The notes under the pieces are model-generated. The model was not told the DNA's origin, searched no databases, and saw only the letters and a list, made by a program, of their open reading frames with translations. DNA of 44,992 nt from Oscillospiraceae bacterium. GTDB taxonomy: Bacteria; Bacillota; Clostridia; Oscillospirales; Acutalibacteraceae. Shown here in pieces: positions 10,791 to 43,730 of this stretch (the stretch's first letter is position 1; each line of letters opens with the position of its first letter). A program made the translations under genes and the position numbers. The DNA lies in NCBI GenBank assembly GCA_015066385.1, contig SVOJ01000023.1, positions 1-44,992 on the forward strand, read 5' to 3'.

Positions 10791-10893
10791 CAATTATTTA
10801 AAAATCATTCATCAGCAAATGGTATGAAAATGCGAGGAAAATGGAGAAAATAAGAGCAAATGCGAAATATTTTAAAATTTCTTCAAAATGGTG

Positions 10894-10922
10894 TTGACAA
10901 ACCCATTTGAACATGATAATAT
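10894..10922 (+). promoter_or_regulatory. Promoter of rplM-rpsI
   Basis: TTGACA (10894-10899) is followed by an A/T-rich -10 region, GATAATAT (10915-10922). Spacing is 15 bp to GATAAT or 17 bp to TAATAT. The transcript would begin about 30 nt before the rplM start. Confidence 0.7.
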
Positions 10923-10959
10923 ACACGAGCAAAGATAAATGAAATCAGGAGGAACCACA

Positions 10960-11388
10960 ATGTCTACTTACATGGCAAACGCTGCTACTGTTGAGCGCGC
11001 ATGGTACGTTCTTGATGCTGAAGGCAAAACCCTCGGTGCTCTCGCTGTCGAAGCTGCTAACCTTCTTCGCGGCAAAAACAAGCCCACCTTCACTCCTCAC
11101 GTTGACTGCGGCGACAATGTTATCGTCATCAACGCTTCCAAGATCGTTCTGACCGGCAAAAAGCTCGAACAGAAACATTACTATCATCACACCGGCTACA
11201 TCGGCCACCTCAAGGATGTCAAATACGGCACCCTCATCAAAGAAAAACCCGAATTCGTCGTTGAAAAGGCAGTTAAAGGCATGCTTCCCAAGAACTCTCT
11301 CGGTAGTGCTGCTTTCACCCGTCTTCACGTTTATGCAGGTGCTGAACACAAACATGCTGCTCAGAAGCCCGCTAACTATGAATTTTAA
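10960..11388 (+). CDS. rplM: 50S ribosomal protein L13
   Basis: The 142-residue product is a full-length L13: [24 protein letters not shown] near the N-terminus, the conserved [13 protein letters not shown] at about residues 45-57, and [11 protein letters not shown] in the middle. L13 is an early-assembling 23S rRNA-binding protein. I chose the ATG at 10960 because AGGAGG lies 7 nt upstream; the longer frame starts inside the leader. rpsI follows after 20 bp, the usual rplM-rpsI pair. Confidence 0.98.
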
Positions 11389-11408
11389 GGAAAGGGAGGC
11401 AAATTAAA

Positions 11409-11807
11409 ATGTACGAAGGCAATCCTTATTTCTATGGTACCGGCAGAAGAAAGAAATCTGTCGCTCGTGTCCGTGTATATCCCGGCACCGGCAAAATCAC
11501 CATCAATGACAGAGATATCGACAATTATTTCGGTCTTGAAACTCTCAAGCTCATCGTTCGTCAGCCTCTCACCTTGACCGGCACAGAAGAAAAGTTCGAC
11601 ATCGTCTGCCGTGTTGCAGGCGGCGGCGTTACCGGTCAGGCAGGCGCAATCCGCCACGGCCTTTCCCGTGCTCTTCTGCAGTATGACGAAGAACTCCGTT
11701 CTCCTCTCAAGAAGGCCGGTTTCCTTACCAGAGACCCCAGAATGAAGGAAAGAAAGAAATACGGTCTCAAAGGCGCTCGCCGTGCACCGCAGTTCTCCAA
11801 GAGATAA
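11409..11807 (+). CDS. rpsI: 30S ribosomal protein S9
   Basis: The 132-residue product is a complete S9 ([19 protein letters not shown] at the N-terminus, [15 protein letters not shown] in the middle). It ends in the conserved C-terminal tail QFSKR, whose last Arg reaches the P-site tRNA. GGGAGG precedes the ATG. The last codons (TTC TCC AAG AGA TAA, 11793-11807) are the anchor for a series of repeats downstream: the same peptide end recurs at 11946, 12100 and 14744. A known integration hotspot for some Firmicute integrative elements is the rpsI 3' end, and this locus shows the signs of such use. Confidence 0.98.
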
Positions 11808-11825
11808 CAATTTATGTTTACTCTT

Positions 11826-11859
11826 CCCCGAAAGTCTTGCGATTTTCGGGGCTTTTTTT
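11826..11859 (+). terminator. rpsI terminator (first copy)
   Basis: The stem CCCCGAAA (11826-11833) and TTTCGGGG (11844-11851) is followed by a run of seven T residues. A diverged second copy lies at 11984, so the terminator travels with the repeated rpsI 3' end. Confidence 0.92.
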
Positions 11860-11869
11860 ATATCACGCC

Positions 11870-11963
11870 GAACTGCGGTCCTCGCGGCACAGCCGCTGCG
11901 GTCGAAGCTAAAAATGTGCCACCGGCACATTTTTTTAACGTTTCGAAGTTCAGCAAACGCTGA
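11870..11963 (+). repeat. Palindromic element, rpsI copy A, with FSKR-stop tail
   Basis: An 82-bp element (11870-11951) starts GAACTGCGGT, the inverse of the rpsI end ACCGCAGTTC, and ends in AGTTC. Inside are the stem CGCGGC/GCTGCG and a central perfect hairpin AATGTGCC/GGCACATT. The sequence then continues as AAG TTC AGC AAA CGC TGA (11946-11963), encoding KFSKR-stop with codons that differ from the host's QFSKR-stop. It has the same length as copy B at 12024, and the central stem differs from that copy by paired, compensating changes. Confidence 0.8.
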
Positions 11964-11983
11964 CCTTATATTTCTGCTTATTA

Positions 11984-12013
11984 CCCCGAAAGCTTTGTCT
12001 TTCGGGGCTTTTT
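11984..12013 (+). terminator. rpsI-type terminator (second copy)
   Basis: CCCCGAAAG (11984-11992) pairs with CTTTCGGGG (11999-12007), followed by a T tract. It follows the FSKR-stop of copy A at about the same distance as the first terminator follows rpsI, so gene end and terminator are duplicated together. Confidence 0.9.
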
Positions 12014-12023
12014 GTTGTTTGCT

Positions 12024-12117
12024 GAACTGCGGTCCTCGCAGCACAGCCGCTGCGGTCGAAGCTAAAAACAGTCCAGCGGACTGTTTTCTTAACGCTTCGA
12101 AGTTCTCCAAGAGATAA
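12024..12117 (+). repeat. Palindromic element, rpsI copy B, with FSKR-stop tail
   Basis: An 82-bp element (12024-12105) with ends GAACT and AGTTC. It holds stems CGCAGC/GCTGCG and AACAGTCC/GGACTGTT. It runs into AAG TTC TCC AAG AGA TAA (12100-12117), which encodes KFSKR-stop and is identical over TTCTCCAAGAGATAAC to the true rpsI end at 11793. This copy is the left boundary of the low-GC island. Confidence 0.8.
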
Positions 12118-12134
12118 CTTCTTCTCAAAAATTT

Positions 12135-12166
12135 CAGCTCTCACGCAAGTGGGGAGCTGTTTTTTT
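12135..12166 (+). terminator. Terminator following copy B
   Basis: CAGCTCTCAC and GTGGGGAGCTG form a stem with one bulge and a GCAA loop, followed by seven T. Close relatives lie at 14563 and 14777, each just after another copy of the rpsI end. Confidence 0.85.
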
Positions 12167-12226
12167 CTTGCTGAACACATTTTTGATAAAAAATATCCGA
12201 GTATTTTTATAATACTCGGATAACGG

Positions 12227-12775
12227 TTATTTGTTTATTTTTTTAAGTATGTCATCTAATAATTCTACTTGCTTTGCATTGTTTTTGGATATTTCAAGAA
12301 GCACCATTGTAAAGCAAACTATGATACCGCCCACAATTGCACCAAGCAAGGCACCGAAAATAAGTCCTTCTTCTTCATAAAACTGATATCCAAAAATAGC
12401 ACCGGCAGCAATCAGCATAAAGAAAAAAATTCCAATTACTAAAGAGGCAATATTTGTCCAAAAATCATTGGGGCGTGTTTTTTTAACTTTTTCTTCTTTT
12501 TCTTGTGCTCCGCTGTATTCCTCTTTTTGAATAGAGGCATTAGTTATGCAATTTCTTAAAATATCCTTTACAAATGTTTGCATATCGGAATTGTTTTCTA
12601 AGCAGTTATTAAGAGTATCTATTGATTCTATCTTTTTGCTTCTAAAGCTACTAGAATCAATTAAACTTTCACAATTATCTTTGCATCTTTTACAAATACA
12701 GGGGATGCATTGACCACCGTAACTGAACCACAAATTATCACTTTGGCCGCTGCAAATTGAACACTTATTTGCCAT
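12227..12775 (-). CDS. Zinc-ribbon membrane protein, accessory
   Basis: The 182-residue protein has four CxxC-like pairs at the N-terminus (CSIC at about 5-8, then CIPCICKRCKDNC at about 23-35), which look like a zinc-binding treble-clef or ribbon. A charged linker follows, then two hydrophobic helices (about 107-130 and 138-160) and a Lys-rich tail. I do not recognise the family. Its base composition is clearly AT-richer than rplM-rpsI, and it lies between two copies of the rpsI end, so it is cargo of a horizontally acquired segment. It is transcribed against the flanking genes. Confidence 0.65.
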   Translation of the reverse strand: MANKCSICSGQSDNLWFSYGGQCIPCICKRCKDNCESLIDSSSFRSKKIESIDTLNNCLENNSDMQTFVKDILRNCITNASIQKEEYSGAQEKEEKVKKTRPNDFWTNIASLVIGIFFFMLIAAGAIFGYQFYEEEGLIFGALLGAIVGGIIVCFTMVLLEISKNNAKQVELLDDILKKINK

Positions 12776-12890
12776 TCTTTTTTCCTCTTTCTTTTATTGT
12801 TTCTTACATTATAGCCCGAATACGGGCAATTGTCAAGTCAATGTCATGATTTTATAATGAAAGAAAATTCTGTGTTTCATTGGTGATATT

Positions 12891-13103
12891 GTGATAATTT
12901 ATGATAACTTATGGATTACTTTAAAAGAAAAAGGCATAAGTCAATATCGGTTAATAAAAGAATATGGTATCAGTTCCGGACAGCTTGACAGACTCCGAAA
13001 AAACGGAAATGTAAATGCGTATACGCTCAATACTTTATGTGAAATACTCGGATGTAAATTAGAAGACATTGCACAATATATTCCCGATGAAAAAACAGAA
13101 TAA
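12891..13103 (+). CDS. XRE/Cro-family HTH regulator
   Basis: The 70-residue protein is a single Cro/C1-type helix-turn-helix domain (MIIYDNLWITLKEKGISQ, then recognition helix GISSGQLDRLRKNGN, then TLNTLCEILGCKLEDI). It is of the small type common on integrative elements. The start is GTG at 12891; the MxxYDxLW opening matches the family and supports it. It probably controls mobility or cargo genes of the island. The following integrase is truncated, so its original target may be lost. Confidence 0.85.
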   Translation: MIIYDNLWITLKEKGISQYRLIKEYGISSGQLDRLRKNGNVNAYTLNTLCEILGCKLEDIAQYIPDEKTE

Positions 13104-13154
13104 TCGATATTAATCAACAAAAAAATAGACAGGGTTCAGCAATGCCCCTAATAA

Positions 13155-13334
13155 GTAACACACGAGCTCCGACATAGCAATGCAAGTCTTATGATAAATA
13201 AGGGTATTGTTGTTAATGTGGCTTCCGAGCATTTAGGCCATTGTAATATTGCAATTACGGGAGATATTTATTCCCATATCTTTGAGGAATACAAGGAGAG
13301 AATAGAAAAGTGTCTTGAAGATGACCTAATATAA
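13155..13334 (+). pseudogene. Tyrosine recombinase (integrase) C-terminal remnant
   Basis: An open stretch with no start encodes THELRHSNASLMI, then SEHLGH, then the nucleophile region TGDIYSHIFEEYK, ending at TAA 13332-13334. These are box II residues of phage-type integrases (HxLRHS with the catalytic Arg, HLGH, and the active-site Tyr in IYSH). A stop at 13152 closes the frame upstream, and the box I Arg and arm-binding domain are missing. It shows that the island was once integrase-mobilised. Confidence 0.88.
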
Positions 13335-13405
13335 ACAAACGGGGGAATTTTTAGACTCTCCCGTTTGCGTTCTATATTATTAAAATGTTAAAGCTATAAA
13401 AAGCG

Positions 13406-13434
13406 TTGACAAAACAAATTGCTCATGATATAAT
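13406..13434 (+). promoter_or_regulatory. Promoter of the two unknown island genes
   Basis: A consensus TTGACA (13406-13411) and TATAAT (13429-13434) are separated by 17 bp, about 70 bp ahead of the small gene at 13505. Confidence 0.8.
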
Positions 13435-13504
13435 ATTTTGGCTATCTTTTGCTATAATATTATTGAAGTATTATAGTAGTTACATGATTTTAGAAGGTAA
13501 TAGT

Positions 13505-13756
13505 ATGTATAATATGTCATCAAAAACCAAAAAAGCAATTGAAGAAACTGTGGGTTTGCCACTACAAAAAATTTCAAGCATGTCTGTTTTAGAAGAAAAA
13601 CAATGGGTTGAAAAAACAACCAAAAAAGAATTGGTATTTTCTCGTAATCGGCATTATGGGATTATTGGACGCGGCAATCCTTTATTGGCAAGAAAAAAAA
13701 TCAGAACAATGTCGTATGTCGACGATAAGATAGCTAGTATTATAGGGACTAAATAA
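13505..13756 (+). CDS. Small basic accessory protein of unknown function
   Basis: The 83-residue product is rich in Lys/Arg, with the segment SRNRHYGIIGRGNPLLARKK in its middle. There is no membrane segment or recognisable domain. I chose the ATG at 13505, which follows AGAAGG by 7 nt. The longer frame begins within the -35 element and cannot be translated from that promoter. It is low-GC and shares a transcript with the gene 15 bp downstream. Its association with a mobile island is clear; its function is not. Confidence 0.6.
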   Translation: MYNMSSKTKKAIEETVGLPLQKISSMSVLEEKQWVEKTTKKELVFSRNRHYGIIGRGNPLLARKKIRTMSYVDDKIASIIGTK

Positions 13757-13771
13757 AACGGTGATTTATTT

Positions 13772-14344
13772 ATGGCAACAAATGATGATGTTACAAAAGT
13801 CGAATTTGAAATCTATCAAACTTATCAGGATGTTATAGCTCCTTTAATTGCCACTCTTGAGGTTTTGGATAGTGAGTATCCAATAGAAATATTTAATGAA
13901 ATACGGTCTATATTTTTGCATTTATCTAGATATAAAGTGCAAAGTTCCGAAAAAGATGTGTTTACTGCAAAGAGACATGTAAAAAGAGCGATTTTAGATT
14001 GCTACAAATACATATGTGTTTCATATGCGGAAAAATTAGAGAAGTTTCGTATTGAATATAAAGAAGTTAATTTGAATTTGGCGGACAATGGAGAATTTTT
14101 GCCACAATTAAATAAATTGGATGTAGAGGCAAGAGAAAAACTATTTAAGGCAAAAGAGTTTGAAATTCAAACCCATTTAGAAGATAGTGAAGCAAATGAT
14201 AATTATTTATATTCCTTATATGAAGAAGCATATCTGTCGTATAAAGGGGTAAATGACTTTATTACAGACTCAAATGAAGCTATACAGTTTTGTTGCTCAG
14301 AAACAAAAAAGAGTGATATGATAAATAAGGCATCGTTGGCATAA
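13772..14344 (+). CDS. Helical accessory protein, C-terminal membrane anchor frameshifted
   Basis: The 190-residue protein is mostly helical and acidic (for example VEFEIYQTYQDVIAPLIATL and EAREKLFKAKEFEIQTHL). No family is recognised. Immediately after the last codons, in the -1 frame, 14329-14400 reads GIVGIIGFVVGVAGIIISIL and ends with a stop at 14398-14400. That is a typical tail-anchor helix. Restoring one G near 14330 (AAG GGC instead of AAG GC) would join the two, so a single-base deletion has probably removed the anchor. A dnaX-type A-AAA-AAG heptamer lies at 14304-14310, but a -1 slip there meets TGA at once. Confidence 0.6.
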   Translation: MATNDDVTKVEFEIYQTYQDVIAPLIATLEVLDSEYPIEIFNEIRSIFLHLSRYKVQSSEKDVFTAKRHVKRAILDCYKYICVSYAEKLEKFRIEYKEVNLNLADNGEFLPQLNKLDVEAREKLFKAKEFEIQTHLEDSEANDNYLYSLYEEAYLSYKGVNDFITDSNEAIQFCCSETKKSDMINKASLA

Positions 14345-14411
14345 TTGGTTTCGTTGTTGGTGTTGCTGGCATTATCATTTCAATCCTTATGTCAATTTAA
14401 ACATTTTGTTT

Positions 14412-14522
14412 TTTGGTGCAAATTTGGTGCAAAACTTTATGAAACAACAAATGATATTCAATTTTGACAAAACAAAACCGCACAATATAAACGATTTTCA
14501 ACAATATTGCACAATATAAACG
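14412..14522 (+). repeat. Arm-site-like direct repeats at the island's right end
   Basis: TTTGGTGCAAA is repeated head to tail (14412-14422 and 14423-14433). GCACAATATAAACG occurs twice (14480-14493 and 14509-14522). They sit 15-125 bp before the right copy of the att-like core. Paired short direct repeats beside a core are the usual layout of integrase arm-type sites in attP; that assignment is inference. Confidence 0.6.
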
Positions 14523-14535
14523 GTATGCTAAAAAC

Positions 14536-14548
14536 CCCAAGAGATAAC
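14536..14548 (+). repeat. Right att-like core copy (rpsI end)
   Basis: CCAAGAGATAAC, the last bases of rpsI, recurs here. Together with the copy at 12107-12118 it brackets the low-GC segment of about 2.4 kb that contains the integrase remnant. The bases before it (AAAAACC) are not from rpsI, as expected for an attR junction. Confidence 0.7.
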
Positions 14549-14562
14549 TATTTCTCAATTTT

Positions 14563-14594
14563 CAGCACTCACGTAAGTGGGTGCTGTTTTTTTT
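14563..14594 (+). terminator. Terminator after the right att-like core
   Basis: CAGCAC (14563-14568) pairs with GTGCTG (14581-14586), with an inner TCAC/GTGG stem and eight T. It is homologous to the terminators at 12135 and 14777. Confidence 0.85.
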
Positions 14595-14605
14595 GTTTCT
14601 GCACA

Positions 14606-14761
14606 GAATTGCGGTCCTCGCAGCACAACCGCTGCGGTCGAAGCTAAAAACAGTCTGATGGAATCGTCCCCTTTTGTCTGCTTCGCAGACATTTTCCCCA
14701 CACTGTGGGGAAATCTTCACCGGACTGTTTTCGTAACGCTTCGAAGTTCTCCAAGAGATAA
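14606..14761 (+). repeat. Palindromic element, rpsI copy C, with FSKR-stop tail
   Basis: The element (14606-14749) matches copies A and B at both ends (GAATTGCGGTCCTCGCAGCA on the left, CGCTTCGAAGTTC on the right). Its centre is opened by a 60-bp module (14665-14724) with hairpins TGTCTGC/GCAGACA and TTTCCCCACACTGTGGGGAAA. AAG TTC TCC AAG AGA TAA (14744-14761) again encodes KFSKR-stop. The same module sits inside the tRNA-Arg element at 15819-15877. Confidence 0.78.
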
Positions 14762-14776
14762 TTGTTTCTCAAGTTT

Positions 14777-14807
14777 CAGCTCTCACGCAAGTGGGAACTG
14801 TTTTTTT
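14777..14807 (+). terminator. Terminator after copy C
   Basis: CAGCTCTCAC / GTGGGAACTG with a GCAA loop and seven T; third member of the terminator series. It probably marks the original chromosomal DNA downstream of rpsI. Confidence 0.75.
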
Positions 14808-14819
14808 AGTTTCTACACG

Positions 14820-14851
14820 GAACTGCGATCCTCGCAGCACAGTTGCTACAC
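14820..14851 (+). repeat. Truncated palindromic element, copy D
   Basis: GAACTGCGATCCTCGCAGCA and the following bases match the left arm of copies A-C. The match then stops, so this is a decayed left half. Nothing else is seen between it and the promoter of the next gene. Confidence 0.6.
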
Positions 14852-14958
14852 AGGCGGATTTAAGAACGGAATATATTGTAAAATTTTCACCGTTGTGTTC
14901 AATTTTGAATGAATTTATGCTATACTGCTTTCAATGATGAAAATGCGGAGTATTTGAC

Positions 14959-15615
14959 ATGATTGATATATCTCTTTGGATGGATTTATTTTTGAAAGGG
15001 CTGGAGGTGCACTTCTCCGACCGCGTGTGGTTTGTCGGCTTGCAGGGCAGCTACGGCAGAAATGAAGCCAAGGCAAGCAGCGACATTGACATGGTTGTGA
15101 TTCTCGACGAGCTGACTGCGGATGATATAAAAGTATATAACCGATTTCTTGACACCCTGCCGCACAGGGATCTTATCTGCGGTTTTCTGTCGGGCAAAAA
15201 GGAGATTCTGAATTGGGAGCCTGCCGACCTGTTTCAGTTTTATTACGACACAACCCCGATTCGTGGAAGTCTTGATGTGTTAGTCCCCTTACTTGATGAT
15301 ACGGCAATCCGCCGTGCCGTCAGAACGGGTGCGTGCAACATTTATCACGGCTGTGTGCACAATATGCTCTATGAAAAAAGCGAAGAAATTCTGCGTAGTC
15401 TGTATAAATCCGCTTCGTTTGTCGTGCAGGCGATCGCATTCATGCAAACGGGAAAGTATGTAAAGTATCAAAAAGACCTGCTTGGTGTTGTGTCGGCAGA
15501 CGAAAAGGCAATCGTAAGCACATTTCTTGCCTTGAAAAACGGGGCAAATGTCGATTTTAACGCAATGAGTGAAACGCTTTTCAAATGGGCTTCAAAGCTG
15601 CTTGAAAGAATATAA
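14959..15615 (+). CDS. Nucleotidyltransferase-fold protein
   Basis: The 218-residue protein carries the DNA polymerase beta-like nucleotidyltransferase signature GSYGRNEAKASSDIDMVV (residues about 30-47), that is GS...DxD with both metal-binding Asp. An all-helical C-terminal half (from about 130) resembles HEPN/KNT C-terminal domains in layout. Such stand-alone proteins transfer NMP groups to small molecules or proteins; the substrate here is unknown. GGAG lies 9 nt upstream of the ATG and TATACT lies at 14921-14926. It is a single-gene unit ending in a strong bidirectional terminator. Confidence 0.82.
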   Translation: MIDISLWMDLFLKGLEVHFSDRVWFVGLQGSYGRNEAKASSDIDMVVILDELTADDIKVYNRFLDTLPHRDLICGFLSGKKEILNWEPADLFQFYYDTTPIRGSLDVLVPLLDDTAIRRAVRTGACNIYHGCVHNMLYEKSEEILRSLYKSASFVVQAIAFMQTGKYVKYQKDLLGVVSADEKAIVSTFLALKNGANVDFNAMSETLFKWASKLLERI

Positions 15616-15643
15616 CGTTTTTTTTCGATGTTGCCGGAAAAAT

Positions 15644-15686
15644 AAAAACAACTTCACATTTCGTTGACAGGTGTGAAGTTGTTTTT
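15644..15686. terminator. Bidirectional terminator
   Basis: A perfect 15-bp stem, AAAAACAACTTCACA (15644-15658) with TGTGAAGTTGTTTTT (15672-15686), serves the nucleotidyltransferase gene on the plus strand and can stop transcripts on the minus strand. Confidence 0.9.
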
Positions 15687-15712
15687 GCTTTATAATCATG
15701 ATAGTATATAGT

Positions 15713-15740
15713 AAAAAACGACCTGCGTTCACAAGTCGTT
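15713..15740 (-). terminator. Terminator behind the duplicated tRNA-Arg end
   Basis: On the minus strand AACGACTTG pairs with CAGGTCGTT (one G-U), followed by a U tract. It lies just past the second copy of the tRNA-Arg 3' end, as the terminator at 15924 lies just past the real one. Confidence 0.8.
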
Positions 15741-15744
15741 TCTT

Positions 15745-15908
15745 TGGCGCGCCGGAAGGGACTCGACTCTCGCACTGCGGTGCTCGGTCAGGCGCGGCTC
15801 TGAACGGGCAACTGCCCCCGTCCCCCTTTGTCACTTCGTGACATTTCCCCCACACTGTGGGGGAATCTTCCACCGGACGTTCATTCACTCCCGCGCCGCT
15901 TCGAGTCC
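15745..15908 (-). repeat. Palindromic element at tRNA-Arg with duplicated tRNA 3' end
   Basis: The element (15759-15908, 150 bp) has 8-bp perfect terminal inverted repeats GGACTCGA / TCGAGTCC that equal the T-loop region of tRNA-Arg. Positions 15745-15766 repeat the last 22 bases of that tRNA (15958-15979) with one mismatch. Inside, in minus-strand orientation, lie GGCGCGG/CCGCGCC, the 60-bp module shared with copy C at rpsI (15819-15877), and GCAC-CGCA-GTGC. Apart from the module it is nearly identical to the tRNA-Gly element at 43628. Confidence 0.82.
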
Positions 15909-15923
15909 TTCATTAAAGAACGC

Positions 15924-15951
15924 AAAAAAACACCACCGAAAGGGTGATGTT
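15924..15951 (-). terminator. tRNA-Arg terminator
   Basis: On the minus strand AACATCACCC and GGTGGTGTT flank a TTTC loop, with one mismatch, and a run of seven U follows. It lies immediately beyond the tRNA CCA end. Confidence 0.85.
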
Positions 15952-15957
15952 TTCTCT

Positions 15958-16034
15958 TGGCGCGCTGGAAGGGACTCGAACCCCTGACCTACTGGTTCGT
16001 AGCCAGTTACTCTATCCAACTGAGCTACCAGCGC
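15958..16034 (-). tRNA. tRNA-Arg (ACG), CCA encoded
   Basis: The minus strand folds as a complete cloverleaf: acceptor GCGCUGG/CCAGCGC, D-arm with AGCUCAGUUGGAUAGAGU, anticodon loop CUACGAA (anticodon ACG) and T-arm GGUUCGAGUCC. Discriminator G and an encoded CCA follow. A-to-I editing of the wobble base lets it read CGU, CGC and CGA. Its 3' end from the T-loop on is duplicated at 15745-15766. Confidence 0.97.
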
Positions 16035-16115
16035 ATTTCTTATTGCTCAAGTATATTAGCACTTTTTGAAGCAAATGTCAACCTTTATTTTTAAAATTTT
16101 TAAATTATTTTTATT

Positions 16116-16781
16116 TTAATTTTCGCTTTCTTCGTGCAAAGAAATCTTCGGCAGACTCCAATGGAAAACGGTTGCGCAGATGCGGATCAGAACAATCAGA
16201 ATCATTGCAATTGCAGCGGCAGCGGTGCCGTTGCAATTAAAATGCAGCAATGCATAATAAACAGCGCCGCCGATGATAGAAGCGGTTGCATATACGCGTT
16301 TTGTAAAAACAAGGGGAATTGTACGGCTCATGCAGTCGCGCAGAATGCCGCCGCCGACACCCGTAAGCATCCCCAAAAAGACACAGAAATAGGGGTTTTC
16401 GGCTTCGCCCGCTGTGATAGCCGCCTGAATGCCCGATACGGTAAAAGCGGCAAGACCGACGGAATCAACGATATTATTGATATTATCGATCAGTTTTTCA
16501 CGGCGGAAATAGTCTTCGCGCAATATGTAAGCAATTACAAAAACTGCCAACGCCGACACAAATGCCGCCGCAAGCAGACGAAAGCTGTAAAAACAACGGG
16601 GCGGCACATATCCGATGAGCAGATCACGAACCGCACCGCCGCCGAATGCAGTGACCATGCCGAGTGCCAACACGCCGAAGGCATCCAATTTTCTTGCAAT
16701 TGCAATCATGGCACCTGATACCGCAAATGAAATGGTGCCGATCATTTCCGTTAAACTGAAAACAAAATCCGTGATTTCCAT
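16116..16781 (-). CDS. TRIC/UPF0126-family membrane channel protein
   Basis: The 221-residue protein has seven hydrophobic segments arranged as two homologous three-helix halves. Each half has the Gly-rich pore signature GGGxxRD (GGGAVRDLL at about 47-55 and GGGILRDCM at about 140-148), followed by a final helix. This is the prokaryotic trimeric intracellular cation channel family (YicG/YadS, UPF0126), which conducts K+ or acts as a small-molecule transporter. AAGGAG precedes the ATG by 7 nt. It is a single-gene unit; the C-terminal tail is acidic and cytosolic. Confidence 0.92.
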   Translation of the reverse strand: MEITDFVFSLTEMIGTISFAVSGAMIAIARKLDAFGVLALGMVTAFGGGAVRDLLIGYVPPRCFYSFRLLAAAFVSALAVFVIAYILREDYFRREKLIDNINNIVDSVGLAAFTVSGIQAAITAGEAENPYFCVFLGMLTGVGGGILRDCMSRTIPLVFTKRVYATASIIGGAVYYALLHFNCNGTAAAAIAMILIVLIRICATVFHWSLPKISLHEESEN

Positions 16782-43507: not shown

Positions 43508-43581
43508 GCAGGGTTAATTTATTGGTAGAATTTCTGCTTCCCAAGCAGACCGGGCGGGTTCGATTCCCGTACCCTGCTCCA
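43508..43581 (+). tRNA. tRNA-Gly (CCC), CCA encoded
   Basis: A complete cloverleaf is seen: acceptor GCAGGGT/ACCCTGC, anticodon stem TCTGC/GCAGA with loop TTCCCAA (anticodon CCC), T-arm GCGGGTTCGATTCCCGT, discriminator T and encoded CCA. It reads GGG. Its last 22 bases (43560-43581) are repeated perfectly at 43709-43730. Confidence 0.97.
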
Positions 43582-43585
43582 AAAG

Positions 43586-43613
43586 GAAAAGCACCTTCGT
43601 GGTGCTTTTTCTT
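43586..43613 (+). terminator. tRNA-Gly terminator
   Basis: AAAAGCACC pairs with GGTGCTTTT around TTCGT, with a T-rich tail. The 29-bp segment 43580-43608 that holds it is repeated perfectly at 44838-44866. Confidence 0.92.
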
Positions 43614-43627
43614 TTGGAAATACTGTA

Positions 43628-43730
43628 GGGAATCGAAGCGGCGCGGGAGTGAATGACAGTCCGGTGGACTGTCAGAGCCGCGCCTGACCGAGCACCGCAG
43701 TGCGAGAGTCGATTCCCGTACCCTGCTCCA
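43628..43730 (+). repeat. Palindromic element at tRNA-Gly with duplicated tRNA 3' end
   Basis: The element (43628-43717, 90 bp) has perfect 9-bp terminal inverted repeats GGGAATCGA / TCGATTCCC equal to the tRNA-Gly T-loop region. Inside are GGCGCGG/CCGCGCC (43640-43646, 43678-43684), a perfect 8-bp hairpin GACAGTCC/GGACTGTC (43655-43673) and GCAC-CGCA-GTGC. It continues into a perfect copy of the last 22 tRNA bases (43709-43730). It is nearly identical to the tRNA-Arg element at 15759 except for that element's central module. Confidence 0.85.

Follow-up and report, generated by a model that had tools for sequence, protein, structure and literature searches.

Gene-less units with inverted arms that match their target lie behind rpsI, tRNA, and tmRNA genes

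In an Oscillospiraceae genome, the 3' end of rpsI, the gene for ribosomal protein S9, is followed by small units, each of which combines a new gene end and a terminator with a partial gene-end copy in inverted orientation and a body of two hairpins. The window analyzed is one complete contig (C38, 44,992 nucleotides) of a 3.17-Mb draft genome labeled G000. Related units lie behind tRNA genes and the transfer-messenger RNA (tmRNA) gene, and their inverted arms match the gene that they adjoin. The mobility of the units and this target rule are well supported. We give an even chance to the reading that these are gene-less integrative units of ~140 to 220 bp, inserted at integrase attachment sites by a recombinase acting in trans. 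Read in gene orientation, a filled site has the layout gene - A - T1 - A' - body - A - T0. Here A is the gene 3' end (T loop to CCA in a tRNA, GTTC to the stop codon in rpsI), T1 a terminator, A' the partial, inverted gene-end copy, and T0 the older terminator; two hairpins (HP1 and HP2) form the body.

The repeating order 3' of rpsI is S9 end (FSKR and stop), terminator, inverted rpsI-end copy, and two-hairpin body (Table 1). A preliminary description of this DNA placed palindromes at 11870, 12024, and 14606 and a truncated copy at 14820, and all four positions are borne out. The left end of the palindrome, GAACTGCGGT, matches the rpsI end, ACCGCAGTTC, exactly in inverted orientation, also as described. 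The claimed succession of ~150-bp units holds for the first two palindromes, which are in register at 154 bp and 83% identical over 90 nt, but not for the stretch between palindromes 2 and 3, which is ~2.4 kb long and is not a unit. Palindrome 3 carries a nested insertion within its hairpin (14643-14738). The 32-nt left part of the palindrome occurs three times with at most one mismatch, compared to a mean of 0.00 in 100 dinucleotide shuffles with three mismatches allowed, and a single copy folds as single-stranded DNA with -22.8 kcal/mol (z = -4.74, 200 shuffles). These two results exclude a chance origin of the palindromes in the array. The S9 end after palindrome 1, AGTTCAGCAAACGCTGA, encodes FSKR and stop in codons that differ from those of the rpsI end itself; therefore, this copy probably once served, or came from, another rpsI.

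The target rule was measured on direct and inverted copies of the gene end. The target set consists of rpsI, tRNA genes (at the T loop, and at the anticodon arm in L097 and L182), and tmRNA. The direct-repeat test used the 32 of 41 tRNA loci with at least 300 bp upstream and counted a match at a score of at least 12. The tRNA 3' end, from the T loop onward, recurs beyond the hairpin in 23 of these 32 loci, and a wrong-tRNA control gave 0/32. The inverted T-arm copy is located between T1 and HP2. It matches the local tRNA over a mean run of 12.2 and other tRNAs over 5.8, and the local tRNA is a better match than the mean of the others in 38/41 loci. When hits of all classes are pooled, inverted matches of at least 8 occur across the hairpin in 41/116 hits, compared to 17.4 expected from swapped partners. 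At rpsI loci across genera the inverted arm tracks, by eye, the wobble base of a variable proline codon in nine of the 11 readable loci (CCG 6/6, CCT 3/4, CCC 0/1), a count that leaves out L053 and L105, in which the body is partial and the arm unreadable. These data support the preliminary proposal that insertions recurred at one fixed position close to the gene end, and that each of them re-supplied the end and a terminator and brought terminal repeats that match the target.

Departures from the 3' pattern were observed at two kinds of site. The unit in L097 and L182 splits a tRNA-Lys copy at the anticodon arm, and the 5' half of the tRNA is duplicated rather than its 3' end. On the 5' side of tRNA-Pro in G000 (contig C17; L195, 2370-2800), partial 5'-tRNA copies with upstream flank are interspersed with palindromic repeats of other kinds; the gene has thus been rebuilt on this side as well.

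The limitation to rpsI in the preliminary description does not stand, because units also lie behind tRNAs and tmRNA, including the tRNA-Arg and tRNA-Gly genes of the window. The latter two units share a body, class B, that is unlike the body of the rpsI array. The genome gave 43 tRNA matches, and 32 tRNAs from the window and the fetched loci were examined. Ten were flagged, of which three have a true second tRNA gene downstream and one is the tRNA-Thr upstream of tRNA-Tyr. A 3'-end copy is present in five of the remaining six, and the sixth, a tRNA-Arg at L270, has the inverted arm only. A 17-nt class B signature, with one mismatch allowed, occurs 19 times in four of 26 same-genus genomes, and the reversed control pattern occurs once. 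Eight of the 19 have an intact tRNA no more than 190 bp away (Leu, Ala, Gln, Trp, Arg twice, Gly, Met), one is behind tmRNA (L302), two are second units behind tRNA-Pro and tRNA-Trp, and two have a tRNA farther away (Gly at ~0.9 kb, Ser at ~0.2 kb). Exact terminal inverted repeats of 8 to 13 bp bound 16 of the 19; they spell T-arm sequence and vary with the tRNA while the body stays constant. With RNA parameters the tRNA-Gly unit folds into a closed three-way junction in which the terminal repeat is the closing stem. A further body class (GGACGAGCGGTACAGAGAAACAGTCC...GACCGCGAGCGACCAAGCGC) is present beside class B units in L300 and L317.

Comparison of related genomes shows turnover. The content of the rpsI array differs among G000, G021, G001, and G016. 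The rpsI genes of G021 and G000 are 98% identical, and the two genomes have in common the last rpsI-end copy before a decayed element and the first ~0.9 kb of that element; the units in front differ. The G016 array contains two terminators of the window array in changed order, and its own segment ends exactly at TCCAAGAGATAAC. Palindrome-free rpsI ends, which the preliminary description proposed to look for in relatives, are present in G009, G014, G017, and G019; CGAACT after the rpsI terminator of G014 may be a trace of the palindrome. The tRNA-Arg site of the window carries body B in G000, another small body in G021, and no visible unit in G001. A further tRNA-Arg site carries a 138-bp insertion in G021 that is absent from G000, between flanks of 94% and 91% identity. 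Two units lie 153 bp apart behind tRNA-Trp in G021, with identical terminators and the second cut short, and none lies behind tRNA-Trp in G000. This locus was rejected as a clean empty/filled pair, because the sequence past the unit is unrelated between the two genomes.

The most conserved part of the body was used to follow its spread. With one unit as query, the genome yielded 11 matches, of which five are in the window, two follow tRNA-Tyr, one follows tRNA-Pro, and three are short. The HP2 core, defined by the pattern GCTAAAAACA-stem-loop-stem-TGTTTTCTTAACG, occurs nine times in five of 59 genomes, including G000. Four copies belong to rpsI-end arrays, although the fetched stretches of G013 and G016 do not include the intact rpsI; four are behind intact tRNAs (Tyr twice, Pro, Ser), and one (L025) stands beside a tRNA-like end without an intact tRNA. 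The expectation that copies sit at rpsI or tRNA ends thus holds within the genus for eight of nine copies, the ninth being at the tRNA-like end. A scan of 84,980 species genomes gave at least 118 stretches and viral contigs gave 4, together 122. The 80 listed records are mostly Clostridia, with some Bacteroidetes, Sulfurovum, Sphingomonas, and Rhodobacterales. In other Clostridia, many tRNAs have the hairpin behind them. Of the 131 HP2 hits among the matches listed, 41 are no farther than 220 bp from the 3' end of an intact tRNA, 13 have T-loop sequence, nine have an rpsI end, and 68 fell into a class of other sites. Beyond the genus, then, the expectation fails for part of the copies; the last class includes truncated gene-end cases (for example L085, L088, and L109) and true dispersed repeats. 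Robertkochia marina has six dispersed HP2 copies, five of them within a repeat of several hundred base pairs. Dispersed HP2 repeats exist, and the distribution of the hairpin is therefore wider than that of the gene-end units.

Several observations accompany this distribution. The R. marina repeat (L259, L264, L266, L268, L269) reaches ~700 bp in some copies and has inverted ends and many hairpins, with the HP2 core inside. The smallest copy noticed is a ~50-nt insertion with the HP2 core within an IS630-type transposase gene (L096, ~1190-1245). A cluster of serine recombinases identified by eye near HP2 (six loci, 31-492 bp away in five) and an integrase-like cluster (four loci) were not tied to the units, because the ten loci were viewed without a constant arrangement emerging and recombinases near tRNAs are expected anyway. 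Copies of the last 53-59 nt of rpsI alone are present in several same-genus genomes (L046-L048, L050-L054), and one in G013 precedes a palindrome unit; they are probably the right ends of other rpsI-targeting elements.

The hairpin shows strong covariation. Thinning left 93 hairpins; all but a few of those with a length of 51 nt make up an alignment of 68, in which 91.7% of cells are paired and both sides have changed in 155 cells, compared to 45.6 in shuffles. The covariation score of 0.288 (shuffles, 0.084) was reached by 0/500 shuffles and was at most 0.079 with partners slid; relatedness inflates such scores, and the patterns by which hairpins were picked fix the flanks and not the inner stem. 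Further pair types are not above shuffles (388/500 reach the count). The unpaired bases of HP2 are on one arm. Rfam models at gathering score matched tRNAs alone in seven loci and window positions 10800-16200.

The ~2.4-kb interval between palindromes 2 and 3 contains a tyrosine integrase C terminus and an HTH_26 reading frame, and corrects the statement in the preliminary description that no enzyme is encoded here. A shorter, 45-residue piece of the integrase remnant gave no match. Toward its right end, this decayed element has a pair of 29-nt direct repeats that are possible integrase arm sites. Relatives of the integrase remnant were matched at E <= 1e-8 in 23 of 150 genomes of the family, G000 included. 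Among 26 integrase loci beyond that of the window, rpsI is a neighbor in two (L228 and L230), both in other genera, and L228 is itself a remnant with a stop; a third locus (L236) has an rpsI-like end copy. The rpsI gene adjoining integrase loci fits the rpsI-specific integrative and mobilizable elements (IMEs) of streptococci, as far as described in passages of PMC5704250. The rpsI array of G016 holds a ~2-kb segment.

Table 1. Positions in the window of the rpsI array, the decayed element within it, and the two class B units.
Feature	Positions	Strand	Evidence
rpsI (S9), target gene; functional end AGTTCTCCAAGAGATAA at 11791-11807	11409..11807	+	sequence, same-genus matches
Unit 1 terminator	11808..11866	+	sequence; near-identical terminator last in G016 array (L057)
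Palindrome 1: inverted target arm GAACTGCGGT (11870-11879), HP1, HP2 with stem TGTGCC, right end CGAAGTTC	11870..11951	+	
Re-supplied S9 end AGTTCAGCAAACGCTGA after palindrome 1	11947..11963	+	
Palindrome 2; HP1 at 12031, HP2 at 12061-12094	12024..12105	+	
Re-supplied S9 end AGTTCTCCAAGAGATAA, then terminator at ~12118-12170	12101..12117	+	
Decayed integrative element (inferred extent), flanked by two rpsI-end copies	12176..14536	.	
HTH_26 (Cro/C1-type) reading frame, P0001; possible GTG start at 12891 by eye	12900..13103	+	
Tyrosine integrase C terminus (HELRH...LGH...DIYSH)	13155..13334	+	PF00589 E = 4.1e-8
Two 29-nt direct repeats (family D8) near right end of decayed element	14471..14528	+	
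rpsI-end copy at right end of decayed element, only CCAAGAGATAAC kept	14537..14548	+	
Palindrome 3; HP2 enlarged by nested hairpin	14606..14749	+	
Re-supplied S9 end after palindrome 3, then terminator	14745..14761	+	
Palindrome 4, truncated	14820..14845	+	
Class B unit behind tRNA-Arg: terminator, inverted T arm, body, tRNA 3'-end copy (15766-15745)	15745..15957	-	
tRNA-Arg, target gene of the second unit	15958..16034	-	
tRNA-Gly, target gene of the third unit	43508..43581	+	
Class B unit behind tRNA-Gly: terminator, inverted T arm, body, tRNA 3'-end copy (43709-43730)	43582..43730	+	

The proposed mechanism starts with a circular A-T1-A'-body unit that would be joined to the chromosomal A by a recombinase supplied in trans. 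The gene would receive a fresh end with its terminator, while the previous pair would be shifted downstream, so that units would stack. The recombinase would most likely be a tyrosine integrase from elements sharing these attachment sites. rpsI, tRNA arms, and tmRNA are the usual sites of tyrosine integrases, which makes these enzymes the natural candidates; rpsI and tRNA-Lys are among the integration sites named in passages of PMC5704250. The A' arm and the hairpins may fold a single strand such that A paired with A' forms a double-stranded attachment site, in the manner of an integron attC site.

The terminators were compared at 29 tRNA loci. Between loci, 23/406 T1 pairs and 1/406 T0 pairs score at least 15, and the likeness of T1 across loci therefore favors a terminator carried by the unit. 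The T run is kept in 25/29 T1 and 15/29 T0 sequences. Within loci, the likeness of T1 and T0 is not above the 95% control level in 16/29. A simple long target-site duplication was rejected because it fits only in part, T1 and T0 being alike in just 13/29 loci.

A number of results weigh against integration of gene-less units by a trans-acting recombinase. In the 13 loci just named, some of which are tandem arrays, the likeness of T1 to T0 exceeds the 95% level set by mismatched pairs, and local duplication would give the same. The resemblance among T1 sequences may come in part from T1 still working as a terminator, T0 being more decayed. Ordinary integrases do not explain an A' arm that follows the target. 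More than half of the HP2 hits among the matches listed were classed as neither tRNA nor rpsI sites (68/131), and the three short matches in the search of G000 (24 nt) belong to a different dispersed repeat. Of the 17 class B copies assigned by their surroundings (all but L305 and L306), four, L301, L307, L311, and L316, have no tRNA or tmRNA within the fetched locus. The HP2 hairpin was seen in 0/26 integrase loci, an intact element with integrase and body together was not found, and a circle or excision of a unit was not observed.

The target-following arm can be accommodated in two ways. Quasi-palindrome correction could slowly match an inverted arm to its target, and a folded single-stranded site, as in integron attC, would demand such a match. 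The latter would suit self-adapting micro-elements with a constant two-hairpin body, whose arms are rewritten for each target and whose folded arm and gene end form the attachment site, like integron cassettes that use essential gene ends. We regard this as possible but doubtful. If it is true, one element could settle behind rpsI, tmRNA, and many tRNAs, giving a working end and terminator each time. Alternatively, the units may be scars of ordinary integrative elements, that is, IMEs or integrative and conjugative elements decayed to their attachment sites, with the palindromes as attachment-site arms. Accretion of such cis-mobilizable elements (CIMEs) at gene ends is described in passages of PMC5704250, and the decayed element with its integrase remnant in the G000 array and the ~2-kb segment in that of G016 agree with it. 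Bodies alike in sequence and length recur at different tRNAs and across genera, which is not expected of elements that decayed independently, and the hairpin is missing from the 26 integrase loci examined; we consider this origin unlikely for the units as a whole.

Palindromes resembling repetitive extragenic palindromic (REP) sequences or miniature inverted-repeat transposable elements (MITEs), moved by an HUH or DDE transposase, would account for the dispersed copies in R. marina and in the IS630-type gene and for unpaired hairpin bases confined to one arm, with the gene-end copies arising by local duplication. Transposase ends are fixed, whereas the terminal inverted repeats here vary by locus and follow the target. 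When 22 proteins near 11 non-Clostridia copies were scanned against Pfam, none of the families listed, the first 25 of 44, had more than one member, and we hold a transposase to be rather improbable. Mobility would not be needed at all if replication template switching at terminator and T-arm palindromes made the inverted and direct copies in place. The inverted local copy in A', the partial 5' copies beside tRNA-Pro, and the like terminators in 13/29 loci point that way. Template switching has little probability in our judgment, since the body is not local sequence and recurs across loci and genera, T1 and T0 are no more alike than controls in 16/29 loci, and one re-supplied S9 end uses other codons. 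RNA-guided insertion, with the body as a structured RNA and A' as the guide for a recombinase or nuclease in trans, draws on the strong hairpin covariation and the adjacent target-specific arm. No enzyme and no transcript are known for it, and the Rfam matches at gathering score are tRNAs only, which makes it very improbable. Reverse transcription primed by a tRNA, with copying between CCA and the T loop, was rejected as an origin since rpsI, a target too, is no tRNA gene. Group II introns and bridge RNAs were considered and not adopted.

The nearest known systems each share part of this architecture. Integron attC cassettes stack at one site with the newest nearest the gene and have a folded inverted-repeat site; here no integron integrase was seen (no integron model was run), no cassette gene is present, and the site is the end of an essential gene. 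IMEs at rpsI or tRNA genes have the same kind of target, re-supplied 3' end, and direct repeats as the units; one such element is IMESag-rpsI, a streptococcal IME in the rpsI 3' end with a tyrosine integrase (passages of PMC5704250). IMEs carry their own integrase and relaxase genes, whereas units of 140-220 bp carry none and have no room for genes; the integrase remnant is part of the 2.4-kb segment, not of a unit. CIMEs, which are decayed and keep attL and attR, resemble the units in their gene-end direct repeats and in stacking behind the gene, but lack an inverted target copy and a conserved two-hairpin body of ~150 bp at many genes. Direct repeats are present in the units, and there is no sign that each derives from a larger element. 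MITEs are likewise small and gene-less with terminal inverted repeats, but the repeats of the units follow the target and are not fixed, and their site is a gene end. The direct repeat of a unit is the gene end itself, and no related transposon was found. REP palindromes with HUH transposases share the imperfect hairpin, one-arm bulges, and dispersed copies; they differ in the gene-end targeting and duplication of the units, and no HUH enzyme was linked to the units in the 22 proteins scanned, with no search aimed at Y1.

A literature search, largely of journals open without subscription, gave no described class that fits the units, and the sole match to the letters of the hairpin concerns duckweed chromosomes. 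The nearest kinds each fail a tested feature, IMEs in the absence of genes and MITEs in ends that are not fixed, and the units therefore look like a new kind of minimal mobile element. A CIME-like origin is possible for single units and leaves the shared bodies unexplained. The units confuse the annotation of tRNA fragments and attachment sites, and they make integrase traffic at tRNA ends legible as an insertion history. The target-following inverted arm is a direct handle on how such elements find their sites. A gene-less unit of this size, able to enter essential genes harmlessly because it supplies each with a new end, would come close to the smallest possible integrative element.

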